Source: Rhizobium terrae
GTDB lineage: Bacteria; Pseudomonadota; Alphaproteobacteria; Rhizobiales; Rhizobiaceae
DNA length: 64,000 nt
Assembly: GCF_003425685.1 (NCBI RefSeq)
Contig: NZ_QJKM01000024.1
Span: 1 to 64,000 of the forward strand
Direction: 5' to 3'
Under the pieces are notes generated by a model, which worked only from the letters and a program-made list of their open reading frames with translations, searched no databases and was not told the origin of the DNA. Positions 7,960 to 26,215 of this stretch are shown here, piece after piece. Each line of letters opens with the position of its first letter. The first letter of the stretch is position 1. The position numbers and the translations under genes are program-made.

Positions 7960-7988
7960 CCTAATGGGCACCTAACAAGGAGGATGTG

Positions 7989-13405: not shown

Positions 13406-13535
13406 TTGGGCAGCAGAGGCAGCCGGAGGCTCCTGAGGGCGCCACCCCAGTGCGGGTAATTCGCGACCCCAGTCGACCGCTCCGACAAATTTTGAAAAAG
13501 TTGCGTCAACATCAACACCCCTCCGACCTCGAATT

Positions 13536-13546
13536 GAATCTTGCAG
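13536..13546 (+). repeat. GAATCTTGCAG motif, copy 1
   Basis: One of four copies of a short element whose fullest form is TCTCGAATCTTGCAG (also at 14883, 18538 and 25934). This copy lies 45 bp before the ATG of the small-terminase-like gene. It may supply a -35 (CTTGCA), but no family -10 follows. Confidence 0.45.
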
Positions 13547-13590
13547 GGGCCTAACGCCTCCTAGTCCCAGCGAACACAGGGACTTCTTTC

Positions 13591-14081
13591 ATGGCGCCGC
13601 GCAAAGCTAGATCCGATCCAGTGCTGAAATCGTCAGAGACCGGGTCGCACCCTCCAGCACCGATCGCCGAAGATTCAGCACCCGGCAGAAATGCACGAAC
13701 CTCGACGTCTGCAAGGCATATGTCGTTGAAGCAGCTCGCCACGTTCCTCAATCGAGACCGGAACACGGTGATGAAATACCTCGATCAAGGAATGCCTGCA
13801 GTCGAGAAAGCCGACCGAGACCGTGGCGCTGCGTGGGTATCCGTAACGGCTTCACATCCCGCAAGCGAGTGGCTGCCTCTTTTGGGGAAGATATCGAGGA
13901 GATCGACGCCGAGAACGCTCGAGACCAGGAGCGCGCCAAGATTCTGGGTCTGCAGTACGGCGCGTATCCAGCCCTCGAAGGGATGGATTTCGGGACGGTA
14001 CTCGCAGGCAGCCAGCTTGAAGCTGCTCAGCAGGATGCGGCAAGCCAGACGCAGAATGGTGTCATTGCTCAGCAAAACTGA
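13591..14081 (+). pseudogene. Small-terminase-like DNA-packaging protein with frameshift
   Basis: The first 81 codons read MAPRKARSDPVL, a disordered linker, then MSLKQLATFLNRDRNTVMKY and DQGMPAVEKADRDRGAAW. This is a winged-helix or HTH DNA-recognition segment like Nu1-type small terminase subunits. At the GGG run near 13834 the sensible frame changes to RNGFTSRKRVAASFGEDIEE and an acidic, Gln/Ala-rich C-terminus ending at 14081. One added G would rejoin them into about 163 residues. Small terminases choose the DNA to be packaged, but no large terminase is adjacent. The family assignment is moderate; the frameshift is clear. Confidence 0.6.
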
Positions 14082-14944: not shown

Positions 14945-16057
14945 ATGCCCGCAAAACCCACGACATCGCAGCCTGCCGACCAGCGCGCCCCGCGCCCTGG
15001 CTCGATGCGCGCGTTTGCCGGAGCGCCGACTTCGGTCGACGAAGCCACGCGGTCTTTCGACATCGTGATCACGACGGAACATCCCGTTCGACGGCTGCTC
15101 CCGGATCCTCGACAGGCGCATCCGATCCCGGACAATGTCGACTGCTCATATGTTGAGTTCGACGAAGTTCTGATCGCATCCGGAGTTGACCTGTCGCGCG
15201 CGCCTCGCATGCCGCTGGTTGATTGCCATGACACGTACTCGGGCATCGGCAAGATCCTTGGAAAGATCGACGACGTGCGTGTCGAGGGTGATGCCGTCGT
15301 AGGCCGGGCATCTCTCGCTCGCAAGCATGCTAACCTGCTGCCCGACATCATCGACGGTTATTTCGGCCAGATCTCGGCTGGCTACGACTACGACCTCCGC
15401 CGCGATGCCGAGGTCGTCGAGCGCGAAGGCGATGTGCCTCTGCTGCTCGTTAAGCGCTGGCTCCTGACAGAGGGCAGTCTCCTGCCCGTCGGCGCCGACC
15501 CGAATTCCTTCATCCGCTCCTTCCATGGGTCACCGGCACAGCCGTCTGTCCGGAGCGCGGAAACCCCGAAACCTCAGGAGAAGAAAATGGACATAGAAGC
15601 CCTCGTTAAGGCTGCAGAAGAAGCGGTCGCATCCGCAGAGGAAGCCATCGGCGCAGCCGAGGACGCAATCCCGGAAGACCTCGTCGAGCGCATCCGGACA
15701 CTCCGCGGTGCCAAGGCCGAAGAAGACACCGGCGCCGCGACGGATGAGAAGACCGACGGCGAACGTGCTGAAGGCGACGACGATGAGCCGACGGAGGCGG
15801 AGAAGAAGGAGGTCGAAGCTGTCCGCAGCATTGCGAAGACCTACGGCCTCGTGAAGATGGTCGACGACCTTTCCGGTCTCCGCGCGAAGCCAGCTCAGAT
15901 CCGCTCCGCCGTCCGTGAGGCCGTCATGAAGCGTGGCATGGCATCGACACCGGAAGCCCCGGCCGCTGTCCAGCCTGCGAAGCGCAGCGCGACCCCAACC
16001 GAGCAGCTCCCATCAGCGCGCTCGATTTACGCAAATCTCAACGGCCGGAAGGCCTGA
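14945..16057 (+). CDS. HK97-type prohead protease fused to scaffold-like domain
   Basis: This is a capsid maturation protease of the Caudovirales (HK97 prohead protease superfamily). The 370-residue protein has a core at about 36-190 with candidate catalytic His95 in PLVDCHDTYSG and Ser144 in FGQISAGYDYD. These are the usual His-Ser spacing and contexts. After about residue 215 comes a highly charged Ala/Glu-rich region (EALVKAAEEAVASAEE; DDDEPTEAEKKEVEAV) of the kind that serves as internal scaffold, as in lambda C/Nu3. Normally a portal lies upstream and the major capsid gene downstream. Here the upstream neighbours are unknown small genes, and only a decoration-like gene follows. Confidence 0.85.
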   Translation: MPAKPTTSQPADQRAPRPGSMRAFAGAPTSVDEATRSFDIVITTEHPVRRLLPDPRQAHPIPDNVDCSYVEFDEVLIASGVDLSRAPRMPLVDCHDTYSGIGKILGKIDDVRVEGDAVVGRASLARKHANLLPDIIDGYFGQISAGYDYDLRRDAEVVEREGDVPLLLVKRWLLTEGSLLPVGADPNSFIRSFHGSPAQPSVRSAETPKPQEKKMDIEALVKAAEEAVASAEEAIGAAEDAIPEDLVERIRTLRGAKAEEDTGAATDEKTDGERAEGDDDEPTEAEKKEVEAVRSIAKTYGLVKMVDDLSGLRAKPAQIRSAVREAVMKRGMASTPEAPAAVQPAKRSATPTEQLPSARSIYANLNGRKA

Positions 16058-16343: not shown

Positions 16344-16810
16344 ATTCCCTTGATGTTGTCGTTCGCCCACTGCACTCCGCGACCCGTGATGAGGCAGTCG
16401 GAGCCGAGCATCTTGAGGAGACCTCCGCCGGACAGACCGGAACCCGCGCGAGCGTCATCAAGGATGAGATCCGAGATCGAAATCGCCTGGGCGCGCTGCG
16501 TCAGGCACCATTCGGGGCTGTCGCCCCAACAATGAAGCTGAGCAAACTGCGACCCGGAAGCGCGCTTGCCGATTTCAAACGTGCTTGATCCAGGCAACGG
16601 ATCCATGAAGTGACGCGACATGGACACGAGCATGCGACCGATCTGGCTGTCATGGGGGCCGTCGAAAATGGGCCACTGACGGCTGAACTGGACAAAGAAT
16701 TCGTCGATGAAGCACTCGCCAGCGGAATCCGTGTTGTCGTTGTCCCACGAGGCTGCGACGGATCCCCAGCGGCTGACGTGCCTGCCGCCATCGCTGCCGA
16801 AGCAGATCAA
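16229..16810 (-). pseudogene. Minus-strand open frame, possible inverted gene fragment
   Basis: A 194-codon frame opens at a TTG at 16810 and overlaps the 3' half of the decoration-like gene. From 16810 to about 16310 the codon choice and composition are protein-like (VQFSRQWPIFDGPHDSQIGR, LLKMLGSDCLITGRGVQWAN). Beyond that it is simply antisense to the capsid gene. I read it as a piece of a gene placed in inverse orientation by rearrangement. The plus-strand frames here show antisense-type composition. I do not recognise the family, so 16344-16837 is best treated as a rearranged stretch. Confidence 0.3.
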
Positions 16811-17047: not shown

Positions 17048-18463
17048 TCAGACCGCTTTCTTGACCTCCGGAACTCCAAGATCAACCTTGTATTCTTCGT
17101 TTTTCTGAACTTTCGCAAACAGGTCGACCAGGTCCTGGGAGTACTTGTGGAAAACGGTTTTGTTGACCTTCTCCGCCCGGTGATACCTGTTGTCTGACTT
17201 CTTTATGTTGATGCCTGTTTCATTGGCAACCCGCGTGATCAGATGATCTGCGGAATGCCAGCCCTTGTGACCGAGGGCCTTGCCGACCTGAGTGAGGCTA
17301 TAGCAGTGGTGCGCCCCGGCGGAGCTGTAGTCGTGGATGTTGGCGATGCCGAATAGTTTGGCGAACGTTTCCGAGTTTTCCACTGCGTCGTTGAGCATCT
17401 TGAAGTCAGCCTCCACGGTCATCTTGGGGATGTCGTGGCGTACGAGTTCGTAAGATCTTGCGATCAGGGATCTGAGCACCCTGGTGTTCACATGCGTTAG
17501 GGCAGGATTGGCTGCGAAGGCGTCGAAAACCCACGAGAAATCGTTGGCAACGATCATCTTGACCCGGACGCTACGATCTTCTTCAGTAGGAATCACCTTC
17601 TCTCGCGGTGGCCAGCTATCCTCAGCAAGGGAGCCGTCCCACTGCAGGATGAAGACGTTCGGAATGATGCCACCCTTTTCAGGCAAAGCCTCGTCGATGT
17701 CGGACAGGATTGCGCGGATGTTCGGATCACCCGCATTGTAGCCGACGAAAACCAGCGGATGCTCATTGAAGAACGTCAGCAGCTTGGCGCTGAGGAACTT
17801 CTTGCGCTTCATGAACTCGTCGTAGTCGTCCGATGTGAAGACGATGCTGTCGTGATCGGTCACGCATCCGTGGATCTTATATATCTCGCCGACGCAGACC
17901 TGCTGCCCCTTGAGGATCTGTTGGCCGATGATCGGCTCGTGGTCTGGGAAGATCAGCTCGATCATCTGGTCATAGTTCGTCGTGATGATCGCGTGAGGCT
18001 TGATCTTCGAAAGCGCCTCGATCTCAGCGATGTATTCAGCCTTCAGCCCGGCGGTATTCTGCGGCATGAGACTGGTGAGATATTCGGCAATCTTGAACTT
18101 GATGTAGGACTGAGCGTGAACGTCATCGTTGAACAGCTCTTTCGGAAACTCGTTGTTACCCGCTCCCCAGGCCCACTCGTGGTAAAGCCGCGCGAATTCC
18201 TGGCCGATCTTGATCGGAGACACCAAGGACTGCTTGTAGAACCCGAGACCCTTGTCAATCACTGAGCACTTGTCTGCGAGGTGTCCTAGCAGCTCCTCCC
18301 AGTTCGGGGCGTCCATATAGCGCTTCGCGAGACCGGATCCGATGAAGAGGATTGGTTGACACCCGAACTCGTCGACTGTGTTCGCGATGTCTTCCGAGAT
18401 CTCCTCAATGTACCGCTCATACCGAGGCTGCTTCGCTTCGACTGCCACAACTTCCTCGACCAT
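17048..18463 (-). CDS. SIR2-domain protein, putative anti-phage NADase (cargo)
   Basis: A 471-residue protein starts at MVEEVVAVEAKQPRY, the ATG nearest a GGGGGTGAC site. The SIR2-like Rossmann domain is clear: FIGSGLAKRYMDAPNWEEL (40-58), ITTNYDQMIEL (160-170), YKIHGC (195-200) and VFVGYNAGDPNIR (238-250). These are the NAD-binding and catalytic motifs of the bacterial SIR2_2 group used in several defence systems (DSR, Thoeris and SIR2-HerA families). The C-terminal 120 residues include YSLTQVGKALGHKGWHSADH and look like a helix-turn-helix or sensor domain. No HerA, TIR or Argonaute partner is adjacent, suggesting a stand-alone effector. NAD depletion on infection is inferred from family knowledge. 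Confidence 0.85.
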   Translation of the reverse strand: MVEEVVAVEAKQPRYERYIEEISEDIANTVDEFGCQPILFIGSGLAKRYMDAPNWEELLGHLADKCSVIDKGLGFYKQSLVSPIKIGQEFARLYHEWAWGAGNNEFPKELFNDDVHAQSYIKFKIAEYLTSLMPQNTAGLKAEYIAEIEALSKIKPHAIITTNYDQMIELIFPDHEPIIGQQILKGQQVCVGEIYKIHGCVTDHDSIVFTSDDYDEFMKRKKFLSAKLLTFFNEHPLVFVGYNAGDPNIRAILSDIDEALPEKGGIIPNVFILQWDGSLAEDSWPPREKVIPTEEDRSVRVKMIVANDFSWVFDAFAANPALTHVNTRVLRSLIARSYELVRHDIPKMTVEADFKMLNDAVENSETFAKLFGIANIHDYSSAGAHHCYSLTQVGKALGHKGWHSADHLITRVANETGINIKKSDNRYHRAEKVNKTVFHKYSQDLVDLFAKVQKNEEYKVDLGVPEVKKAV

Positions 18464-19007: not shown

Positions 19008-20165
19008 ATGAAGGATAGTCCCATGAACGCACACATCGCATCGACCTCTCCAGGTCAGTCTTCTGCAGACACGATAGCAGCAATCCAATCTCTCCTCTCG
19101 GAAGGCAAACGCCGCCAAGAAATCGCCGAAATCCTCGGCATCCCACCTCGCACACTCACCCGGATCCGCGCTCAGATGAAGTCCGGAACCACTCCGACCC
19201 CCGCCGTCGAGCCATCCGCTCCGGCACCCAAGTCTCCCAAACCCACGAAGATCAAGATCGCAACGCCGCAGCCGACCTCCGACGACATTCGCGAGCGGAT
19301 CGCTACCGACGAGTTGACCGTGCCTTTCAGCAACTGGCTGGGCGACGGCTGGTATCGCGAAGCCGGGCAGCCGCAGGACATCTATGAGACGGACGAGAAC
19401 GGCGAACAGCAGCTTGTTGGGGTCAAAGTTGATCCAGGCGTTCTCTGGCCGGACGAATGGAATGGACCGAAGACGGTGGAAGACATCTGGATCAGTCCGA
19501 ACGTGCCAGCTCCAAAACGCAGCCTCAAACGCGGTTTCATCACGACCTCGGCGCAGTCTCTCACTCCAGCGCACGGCCCATTCGTCATCAACCTCCATGC
19601 GCTCGCCGCCGCACGCGGTCTCGAATTTTCGGACATCGGTGGCTTCACCTACGGAAAGAGCGTCTTCGCCAAGAGGCGGAAGAAGGACCTCCTTGAGGTC
19701 GCTCCATGGTCGGCAATGATCGTTGATAAGGTTTGCCGGGACAGGCGCCACCTGCATTCGACGGTACAGGCCTGCTTCGAGATGAACATGCGTCCGACCA
19801 AGCAGAACCCGCTCGTCGGCCTGACAGACTACGTCAGGGGAAAGACCTCGATCTTCGCTCACCCGAAGAGAGCTGTCGAAAGCGTGCCGCGTCCCAGGTC
19901 CTATGACCCGGTGATGATGTGGACGACGGGTTGCTGCACCGTACCGAACTACGTCACGCAGGAGGCTGGGCTGAAGTCTCTGCAGGAACATCAGATCGGT
20001 GCCCTGATCATTGAGATCGACATGGACGACAACGTCTTCATCCGAACGATCGACGCGGATCGGGAAACCGGAAACTTGCATGACCTCGAGCCGCTGGGTT
20101 TCCGCATGCTCTCCGCCATCTCCGAAGCCATCGGCCTGCGGGTCAATCTGCAGGTAGCCGCATGA
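19008..20165 (+). CDS. Phage protein with N-terminal HTH, apparently lacking its C-terminal domain
   Basis: A 385-residue protein starts MKDSPMNAHIASTSPGQSS. An HTH segment lies at about 35-55 (RRQEIAEILGIPPRTLTRIR), then a Pro/Ser/Lys linker and a large conserved-looking domain from about 170 (TPAHGPFVINLHALAAARGL, MNMRPTKQNPLVGLTDYV, TTGCCTVPNYVTQEAGL, GALIIEIDMDDNVFIRTID). I recall similar domains in longer phage proteins that continue into a calcineurin-like phosphoesterase. Here the protein ends soon after, with a different tail, so a C-terminal deletion is suspected. That recollection needs a search. It overlaps the holin-like gene by ATGA. Confidence 0.6.
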   Translation: MKDSPMNAHIASTSPGQSSADTIAAIQSLLSEGKRRQEIAEILGIPPRTLTRIRAQMKSGTTPTPAVEPSAPAPKSPKPTKIKIATPQPTSDDIRERIATDELTVPFSNWLGDGWYREAGQPQDIYETDENGEQQLVGVKVDPGVLWPDEWNGPKTVEDIWISPNVPAPKRSLKRGFITTSAQSLTPAHGPFVINLHALAAARGLEFSDIGGFTYGKSVFAKRRKKDLLEVAPWSAMIVDKVCRDRRHLHSTVQACFEMNMRPTKQNPLVGLTDYVRGKTSIFAHPKRAVESVPRPRSYDPVMMWTTGCCTVPNYVTQEAGLKSLQEHQIGALIIEIDMDDNVFIRTIDADRETGNLHDLEPLGFRMLSAISEAIGLRVNLQVAA

Positions 20166-20398
20166 CCAAGCCATCAACACAGAAATCCCGCTCGTACTCC
20201 AAGAAGCTGACCGCCTGGTCGCTCGTCGGAATCTTTGCCCTGGCATTCTACGGGATCGGCGCGGATGTCATCACCGTCGTCGGCAGCGCGGCCATAGCAC
20301 ACATCGCCCTCTACATCGGCGTCGGCCATCTCGATCTGAGGAGCTGGGTTGCTTCTGGATTGCTCGATCTCCGGAACAAGAAAGGAGCAGCCGAATGA
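20162..20398 (+). CDS. Holin-like membrane protein
   Basis: A 78-residue protein: a basic N-terminus (KSRSYSKKLTAW), then two hydrophobic helices at about 17-36 and 38-57, then a polar basic tail. Its size, two-TM topology and position directly before the spanin genes fit a class II holin. It overlaps both neighbours by 4 bp. The assignment is contextual. Confidence 0.6.
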   Translation: MTKPSTQKSRSYSKKLTAWSLVGIFALAFYGIGADVITVVGSAAIAHIALYIGVGHLDLRSWVASGLLDLRNKKGAAE

Positions 20399-20760
20399 TC
20401 GGATATCTCAAGATTGCCGGGATCGTCGCCGTGCTCGCCGCCGTCGGCTTCGGATACTGGCACCACACATCCGTCGTCGCCGACCTGAAGGCTGCTGAGG
20501 CCGCCAACACTATCCTAACGAGCCAGCGCGATGCGGCCATCTCGACGGCTAACGGAAATGCCCAGGCCGCCGCCAAGGCTGACCAGGACAGGCTGCGCGT
20601 CGTCGCCGAATTGGAAGCCGCGCATGCCGAGATCGAGGCTGCGGCTGCGCGGGATCTGGAAACCGTTAGGGAGATCCTGTTGGCTCCGGATGAAGAAGAT
20701 GGCCCGGTGTCGCCATTGCTTGAAAAGCTCCGCGCGAAGCGGTTCGGAGGTCGGACATGA
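20395..20760 (+). CDS. i-spanin (Rz-like inner-membrane spanin)
   Basis: A 121-residue protein with one N-terminal membrane anchor (YLKIAGIVAVLAAVGFGYW) followed by a long periplasmic alpha-helix rich in Ala, Glu, Asp and Arg (about 25-95). This is the classic Rz architecture. With the overlapping lipoprotein gene it would form the spanin complex that fuses inner and outer membranes in the last step of lysis. No endolysin gene is visible nearby. Confidence 0.8.
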   Translation: MIGYLKIAGIVAVLAAVGFGYWHHTSVVADLKAAEAANTILTSQRDAAISTANGNAQAAAKADQDRLRVVAELEAAHAEIEAAAARDLETVREILLAPDEEDGPVSPLLEKLRAKRFGGRT

Positions 20761-24581: not shown

Positions 24582-24904
24582 CTGAGGAGCGGCCGCCTGG
24601 ACTCCGGGACAGGTGGATCCGGGGCAAGCGCGATCGTCATACGGTGCCGCTGATTCAGATGGACGAGGACTTTCCCTGGACGCTCGCGAACGGCTGCCTT
24701 GAGAGCGGCGACGGACACCGCGAAGACGGTCGAGCGGGATATCGTCTCCAAGAGCTGGCCGCCAGCCTCAGGCGCGTCCGACCAGACTTCGACACGGTAT
24801 GGAGCCTCAGGCGGCTCGGATCCACCGCGGCGGCTGCCTTCGCCGACGGTATAGCCGACATCGGCGCCATCGCGAACGATGTCGATGCCGCGGCGGTGTT
24901 TCAC
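24473..24904 (-). CDS. Hypothetical protein of the minus operon
   Basis: A 143-residue protein starts at a GTG that overlaps the upstream stop (GTGA). The middle, PYRVEVWSDAPEAGGQLLET and FAVSVAALKAAVRERPGKVL, is a clear alpha/beta fold. After about residue 110 the frame runs across the start of the zinc-ribbon gene and reads less convincingly, so the true C-terminus may be shorter or frameshifted. Function unknown. Confidence 0.5.
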   Translation of the reverse strand: MKHRRGIDIVRDGADVGYTVGEGSRRGGSEPPEAPYRVEVWSDAPEAGGQLLETISRSTVFAVSVAALKAAVRERPGKVLVHLNQRHRMTIALAPDPPVPESRRPLLSWGRPPKKLLIDFLNGTSSSAPVLHAAGVALSNAGM

Positions 24905-25227: not shown

Positions 25228-25860
25228 TCAGGAACAGGGAGTCGTTGCAAGGCTCTTCGGTTCACTCTCTAGTTTCTTGACCGATGGTCCCGCTAACTTG
25301 GTCAGATCGAGCAGATGGTAAACGGCGTCGTCGTCGAGCTCTATCCCCGAGTACCAGTCGCGGTTCCCCTCAGCCTTAAACAAGACGCCGCTGACTTCCG
25401 GCCAAACGAGGTGCAGCTTGTTCAAGCACTCTGCGTTGTTGTGCTTCAGAGCGTTTGCGAGGCGATGTACCCGGGCGAATTCGGGAGGTATCGCATAGCC
25501 GAGGCTTTCTGATGCCGCCGTCAGCTTCTTATGGTTTCCATTAGGGAGGTTGGCATATACCCGGAGCCGACGTTCCCAGTAATGATAGATCGTGATAGCG
25601 AATGCCTTCCGGAGTTCTGCATAAGCCTCCTGCAGGACCTCCATCTTATAGCTATAGATGTCCCCTGGATCGAAGAGCGTTGATCCGTCCTCCGCGCACT
25701 GAGGCTCCTCCGCATAGTCGCCAGACTGGCTGTCCCAAGCCTCCGACTCTTCCCGTATTTGATCTTGGATACCCTTGGCGGCTGCGGCAAAACTATCTCG
25801 AAGACAATCGATGCCTGACTGGTACATGAAGCCGCGCACGTTGAAATTCAGTTTTGCCAT
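25228..25860 (-). CDS. HEPN-like helical protein near the element border
   Basis: A 210-residue all-helical protein starts MAKLNFNVRGFMYQSG. An acidic N-terminal half is followed by FAITIYHYWERRLRVYANLP and, near residue 130, FARVHRLANALKHNNAECL. The segment RLANALKH satisfies Rx6H, and the NALKH block recurs in HEPN-related families linked to abortive infection. The assignment is by motif and fold impression, not proven. It lies alone, 280 bp from the tRNA-Phe border, a frequent spot for cargo genes in integrated elements. Confidence 0.55.
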   Translation of the reverse strand: MAKLNFNVRGFMYQSGIDCLRDSFAAAAKGIQDQIREESEAWDSQSGDYAEEPQCAEDGSTLFDPGDIYSYKMEVLQEAYAELRKAFAITIYHYWERRLRVYANLPNGNHKKLTAASESLGYAIPPEFARVHRLANALKHNNAECLNKLHLVWPEVSGVLFKAEGNRDWYSGIELDDDAVYHLLDLTKLAGPSVKKLESEPKSLATTPCS

Positions 25861-25933: not shown

Positions 25934-25948
25934 TCTCGAATCTTGCAG
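25934..25948 (+). repeat. TCTCGAATCTTGCAG motif, copy 4
   Basis: Identical to copy 2 over 15 bp, but with no gene downstream; it lies 20 bp before the iterons at the element's edge. Confidence 0.45.
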
Positions 25949-25968
25949 ATGACCGTGCTCAGATGGCG

Positions 25969-26062
25969 ACGGTATGGAAAACGGTATGGCCTGAGGTCTC
26001 AAGTTTGTGGACAAACACTGGCACCGCCTCATGAAACCGAAAACGGTATGGAAACGGTATAG
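25969..26062. repeat. Four ACGGTATGG iterons at the element's right end
   Basis: Copies at 25969, 25981, 26043 and 26054 (the last ACGGTATAG) form two pairs with 12- and 11-bp periods. GTTTGTGGACAAAC, an inverted repeat, lies between the pairs. Helically phased direct repeats 80-170 bp from a tRNA 3' end are typical arm-type integrase or excisionase sites of an attachment region. A replication or partition role cannot be excluded. Confidence 0.5.
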
Positions 26063-26139
26063 GTCGTCAGACACACCTGAAGTTACAGCGCCTTCGCTAC
26101 CGTACCGCGCCGTAAGTAATTGAACTTGCTAGGAAAATA

Positions 26140-26215
26140 TGGTGCCCGGAGGCGGATTTGAACCACCGACACGCGGATTTTCAATCCGCTGCTCTACCAA
26201 CTGAGCTATCCGGGC
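26140..26215 (-). tRNA. tRNA-Phe (GAA anticodon), likely attachment site
   Basis: The complement reads GCCCGGATAGCTCAG, an anticodon loop with GAA, GGTTCAAATCC and CCA at the 3' end: 73 nt plus an encoded CCA. The 7-bp acceptor stem (GCCCGGA/TCCGGGC) is intact. Its 3' end faces the phage-derived element, the standard arrangement when an integrase uses the tRNA 3' half as its core site and restores it on insertion. To the right begins conserved chromosome. Confidence 0.97.

Follow-up and report, generated by a model that had tools for sequence, protein, structure and literature searches.

Introduction

The core of the phage lambda attP lies between P and P' arms that carry repeated arm-type sites. 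In the excerpts of the papers cited here, arm-binding domains that recognise arm sites are described as common among the integrases of mobile elements (PMC8138268), and tRNA-Phe appears as an established target of rhizobial prophages and ICEs (PMC5537653, PMC8627217). The rhizobial prophage Phi2LM21 of Sinorhizobium sp. LM21 encodes a tyrosine integrase and occupies tRNA-Phe (GAA) (PMC5537653), and ICEMlSymR7A integrates in the 3' end of tRNA-Phe (PMC8627217). According to the excerpted text, the arm-type sites of ICEMlSymR7A follow the consensus TGKTGGTATC, and the 40-bp stretch bound by its RdfS overlaps an arm site upstream of intS (PMC11963761). Among the literature matches listed (titles and starts of abstracts), there was no description of the integrase family treated here or of covariation of arm sites. 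Here we describe the tRNA-Phe locus of Rhizobium terrae in a window of 64,000 nucleotides, the whole stretch of DNA that was analysed.

Results

The window contains an intact tRNA-Phe (GAA) gene on the reverse strand (26140–26215), with its 3' end at position 26140. Four CGGTATRG repeats occupy 25969–26062, 78–171 bp from this end, which agrees with the initial annotation, where they were placed within 200 bp of it. They form two pairs on either side of a GTTTGT/ACAAAC dyad, which is present as annotated (GTTTGT-GG-ACAAAC, 26003–26016) and is a candidate site for an accessory protein. The repeats, predicted from sequence to be arm-type sites, all lie on the forward strand. P1 (25969–25977), P2 (25981–25989, 12 bp after P1) and P3 (26043–26051) are exact copies of ACGGTATGG, and P4 (26054–26062, 11 bp after P3) is ACGGTATAG, with one mismatch to ACGGTATGG. 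The annotated periods of 12 bp in the first pair and 11 bp in the second are thus correct; the claim of four exact copies in the array is not. A fourth exact ACGGTATGG lies at 24794, and the window total of four compares with 0.16 expected; none of 100 shuffled windows contained four. The ACGGTATRG copies at 24794 and 24846, about 1.1–1.2 kb from P1, lie in the interior of the element and may be due to chance. The P arm is adjoined by a gene on the reverse strand for a 210-aa protein (25228–25860), which had no match in PHROGs, Pfam, NCBIfam or PADLOC.

The other boundary was sought in the window's own assembly of 78 contigs. A 98% copy of window positions 26132–26187 was found at 539829–539883 of contig C12, and within it 49 bp (C12:539835–539883) are identical to the attR core at 26139–26187 (forward strand), which comprises the 3' part of tRNA-Phe including the anticodon loop. 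This direct repeat common to attL and attR places the right boundary of the element at tRNA-Phe, as annotated. Genes for KdpD and a KdpE-type response regulator lie to the left of attL. To the right of the attL core there are two TTGTNNACAA dyads and a partial third, then four CGGTATRG repeats (L009:4060, 4071, 4089 and 4110, in the coordinates of this C12 locus), then an open frame for a 517-aa tyrosine integrase (C12:540113–541663). The prediction that a partial copy of the tRNA-Phe 3' end and an integrase gene would mark the other boundary was therefore borne out, and the same arm motif is present four times at each end, as is characteristic of the lambda Int class. The repeat at L009:4110 overlaps the int start codon, an arrangement that would suit autoregulation of the integrase.

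C12 ends 8.5 kb past attL, and the window starts at position 1 of contig C17. Its first 749 positions are an insertion sequence on the reverse strand (1–749), with a Transposase_mut fragment and a terminal repeat, which we take to be of the IS256 type and which separates the parts of the element between the contigs. The terminal repeat (31–32 bp, 97%) also occurs at C12:547952–547983 in opposite orientation, and the element sequence beside both IS ends has a 7–8-bp repeat, (C)ACTATCA. The contig break can thus be put down to a single IS insertion with a 7–8-bp target duplication. A related element in Gellertiella, 48.9 kb between two tRNA-Phe copies, is collinear with the end of C12 followed by C17, and the two sides flanking the IS converge near position 7,970 of that element (extrapolated from tblastx). 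Judged from these sequences, the left portion (C12:539835 to about 547951, with attL and int) and the right portion (window 750–26187) are one element, and the collinearity and the IS junction together give it a length of about 33.5 kb plus the IS.

To the right of tRNA-Phe lie the genes for YacG and Maf, and this flank aligns at the DNA level to all 23 same-genus relatives searched, in accordance with the annotated core gene synteny. In relatives without the element, the tRNA-Phe on the yacG side is joined to other neighbours, as had been predicted, and these differ from one relative to another. The repeats are absent from such strains: no CGGTATRR was seen within 400 bp of the tRNA-Phe 3' end in the 22 relatives with a readable flank, the 23rd (L047) having no intact tRNA-Phe in the locus and standing outside the count. 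The flanks of L040 and L052 resemble, by eye, the end of another integrase gene, and that of L034 has 11-bp pairs of its own; for these reasons the tRNA-Phe gene looks like an integration hotspot. No element-free kdpE/tRNA-Phe junction was seen in 18 same-genus relatives. A strong kdpD/E match (E 4e-221 or better) was present in 12 of these 18 genomes and never beside tRNA-Phe, being on another contig or about 146 kb (G299), 525 kb (G306) or 810 kb (G312) away; the left flank is therefore not conserved. In several relatives kdpDE, which adjoins attL here, is followed elsewhere in the genome by what resembles, by eye, a PtsN-type gene.

Residues R290, K322, H420, R423, H445 and Y478 of the integrase, presumably the catalytic ones, are invariant in 17 aligned sequences of this tyrosine recombinase. 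Its Phage_integrase match lies below the Pfam cut-off, and it has no match to PF13356 (Arm-DNA-bind_3), a domain matched by three of the five family members examined and above its cut-off in two. A Hoeflea olei homologue (75% identical) was modelled with a mean pLDDT of 82.6 and a pTM of only 0.54. The model begins with an N-terminal unit of beta-sheet and helix, continues through a helical middle and ends in the catalytic part, and its best PDB matches are lambda Int complexes (E 9.6e-5, TM 0.41/0.59). Searches with the integrase gave no match in a phage collection, five distant matches among plasmids, and relatives on two IMG/VR virus contigs.

Around the match start of each integrase homologue collected, 290 bp were searched for pairs of 9-mers with 8 or 9 equal positions. 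Redundancy removal at 95% identity or more dropped five loci and reduced 44 to 39; further copies of contigs already in the set (L011, L012, L014, L015, L018, L020, L023, L026, L028 and L111) were not entered. A period-11 pair was found around the int start in 32 of the 39 non-redundant integrases, our own included; the rate was 2.9% in 975 control windows and 2.0% in shuffles. Perfect pairs occurred in 23 of the 39 and in none of the 975 controls, and other periods from 8 to 16 gave a pair in zero to three of the 39. Outside this count stood L120 and L123, excluded as matches without the N-terminus, and two homologues that had initially been omitted (L114 and L119); the latter two also have the pair, which brings the result to 34 of 41 non-redundant integrases, again with our own, and leaves seven without a period-11 pair by the same test. 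Homologues differ in the repeat motif, in which a GGT core is frequent.

For 20 other elements the attR was sought, and it was found in 17 (for G166 the core is a 17-bp match only); with our own added, both arms could be read in 18. The attR of G062, G432 and G705 was not found in the 60 kb searched, and for G204 and G227 the search covered 40 kb only. A period-11 pair in the P arm (at least 8 of 9 matches), 86–146 bp from the core, was present in 17 of the 18. The P arm matched its own element's P' pair with a mean of 16.4 of 20, versus 12.2 for the P' pairs of other elements, and no permutation among 20,000 was as high; the 18 elements are not independent, and their common ancestry lifts the cross scores, which opposes the own-match result. 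In 13 of the 18, no other P' motif scored higher than the element's own. Three of the five misses (G700, G069 and G000) have nearly identical motifs; in G148 the script picked another P' pair than the visible one, and in G345 the P repeats look inverted (both by eye). The same two pairs and dyad recur at the attR of three complete elements: that of Gellertiella (G153, tRNA-Phe), a 51.8-kb element of Hoeflea olei (tRNA-Phe) and the 10.6-kb element G069 (tRNA-Met). The G069 element, within the first 10.8 kb of locus L062, consists of int, both att arms, three transposase-like genes, a C5 DNA methylase and a weak HNH match.

The dyad is concentrated in the arms. Twelve copies of TTGTNNACAA fall in the arms (8,660 bp in total) and three in the interiors of 17 elements (462,668 bp in total); in the window's genome there are three in the arms, two of them on the attL side, and one in the 32.6-kb interior. 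Strict TTGTNNACAA was found in the arms of nine of 18 elements, and five do not have even a loose copy, so that the dyad lies outside the universal machinery. An excisionase was sought among ten small proteins of the element, with no informative match.

Genes for both terminase subunits (small and large), portal, tape measure, tail fibres and endolysin are present in the Gellertiella element. The element of the window's genome has no terminase large subunit, tape measure or tail fibres and has lost most of the portal, so that the complete packaging and tail modules of a functional phage are not there. A tblastn comparison with 11 Gellertiella phage proteins recovered no more than a terminase-small fragment, 62 aa of the portal and the last 19 aa of a tail-region protein (at 16773). 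The first two, identified by similarity to the Gellertiella proteins, are fused on the forward strand at 13519–14021 (terminase small subunit, 13519–13836; portal C-terminus, 13836–14021). Also on the forward strand are a head-protease-like protein (15005–16057, phrog_4523), a DNA-transfer-protein-like gene (19023–20165, phrog_1745) and an Rz-like spanin (20395–20760; a weak match, E 4.6e-5); the PHROGs scan covered 30 of the 47 called genes of the element. The structural and lysis genes of a prophage are thus represented, and on this gene content the element is a remnant prophage; its int frame is open, both att sites are present, and it may still be able to excise. It further carries a C5 DNA methylase, a Rep3-like initiator protein on the reverse strand (L009:9598–11139) and, also on the reverse strand, a SIR2-like protein (17048–18463) that matches the PADLOC candidate defence family PDC-S25 (E 2.8e-80).

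Discussion

Taken together, the sequence comparisons make it very probable that the region is the attR of an integrated phage-type element and that the CGGTATRG repeats are arm-type sites of its integrase. The tyrosine integrase would have exchanged strands in the 49-bp core inside tRNA-Phe. The four repeats of the window would be P-arm sites for its putative N-terminal arm-binding domain, and the four that precede or overlap the int start, just inside attL, would form the P' arm; by bridging both arms to the core, the integrase may build the integration complex.

Other readings of the region fit less well. An attachment region of an ICE or another non-phage island is quite improbable. The same integrase family occurs on elements as small as 10.6–14.4 kb, among which G069 is the one surveyed for gene content, and ICEMlSymR7A uses tRNA-Phe with similar arms, in the excerpt available (PMC11963761). 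However, the integrase relatives on virus contigs, and the genes or remnants for portal, terminase, head protease, tape measure, tail and endolysin in our element and its collinear relative, argue for a phage; with 30 of the 47 called genes of our element scanned, it may yet hold conjugation genes. Phased iterons are typical of Rep3 origins, and the element's initiator has a Rep3_N match (E 6.2e-5), so the repeats might serve it as a replication origin. Iterons of such an origin would be expected next to rep and independent of att and int, whereas these lie beside the att core at either end and next to int, away from the rep gene; their motifs vary among elements yet agree between the two ends of each, and G069, although eroded by transposons, keeps them with no detectable Rep3-like relative. 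We consider this origin very improbable and have rejected it, since the repeats follow att/int rather than rep. That the repeats arose by chance, or are remnants with no part in recombination, is scarcely conceivable, as their small size is all that speaks for it, against the shuffled windows and the conserved arrangement in other elements.

With the repeats taken as integrase arm sites, the annotation of the region as integrase and excisionase sites holds for its first half; the second depends on the dyad. The dyad, between the P pairs and again in the P' arm, is a site separate from the repeats and is probably bound by an accessory protein, either an excisionase or a regulator of int. This choice of protein is a fair guess and no more, made by analogy with RdfS, whose binding stretch overlaps an arm site upstream of intS. 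A broader proposal, to which we give about equal weight for and against, is that this integrase family has a fixed 11-bp arm-pair geometry in both arms, usually with a GGT core, that the surrounding bases change together at both ends, and that TTGTNNACAA marks a dedicated accessory or directionality factor in part of the family.

A phage attachment site is well supported here and is in itself ordinary; the comparative case is unusually clean. Both boundaries of a mobile element split by the assembly are now fixed, and the comparison of the ends shows that phased repeats beside a tRNA gene can be linked to one specific integrase. A set of elements in which the arm motif varies and the spacing stays constant would lend itself to testing how arm-binding domains select their DNA, and covarying arm motifs, if the proposal is true, would be a natural data set for the arm-site recognition code.

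Compared with the described systems, the closest structural likeness is to lambda Int, the best match of the Hoeflea olei homologue, at 14% identity in the structural alignment. The lambda arm motif differs from that of our element. The integrase of Phi2LM21 has 360 aa in the excerpted report, compared with 517 aa here (PMC5537653). As far as the excerpts describe it, the attP/IntS/RdfS system of ICEMlSymR7A in Mesorhizobium japonicum has the same target in the tRNA-Phe 3' end and int just inside attL, and its arm consensus TGKTGGTATC is close to CGGTATRG; this close parallel is one of arms and site. RdfS is described there as having no consensus motif, whereas the dyad of the window is common to the closest relatives. 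ICEMlSymR7A is, in the same excerpts, a conjugative symbiosis island with five arm sites, whereas the element described here is a remnant prophage with eight repeats.
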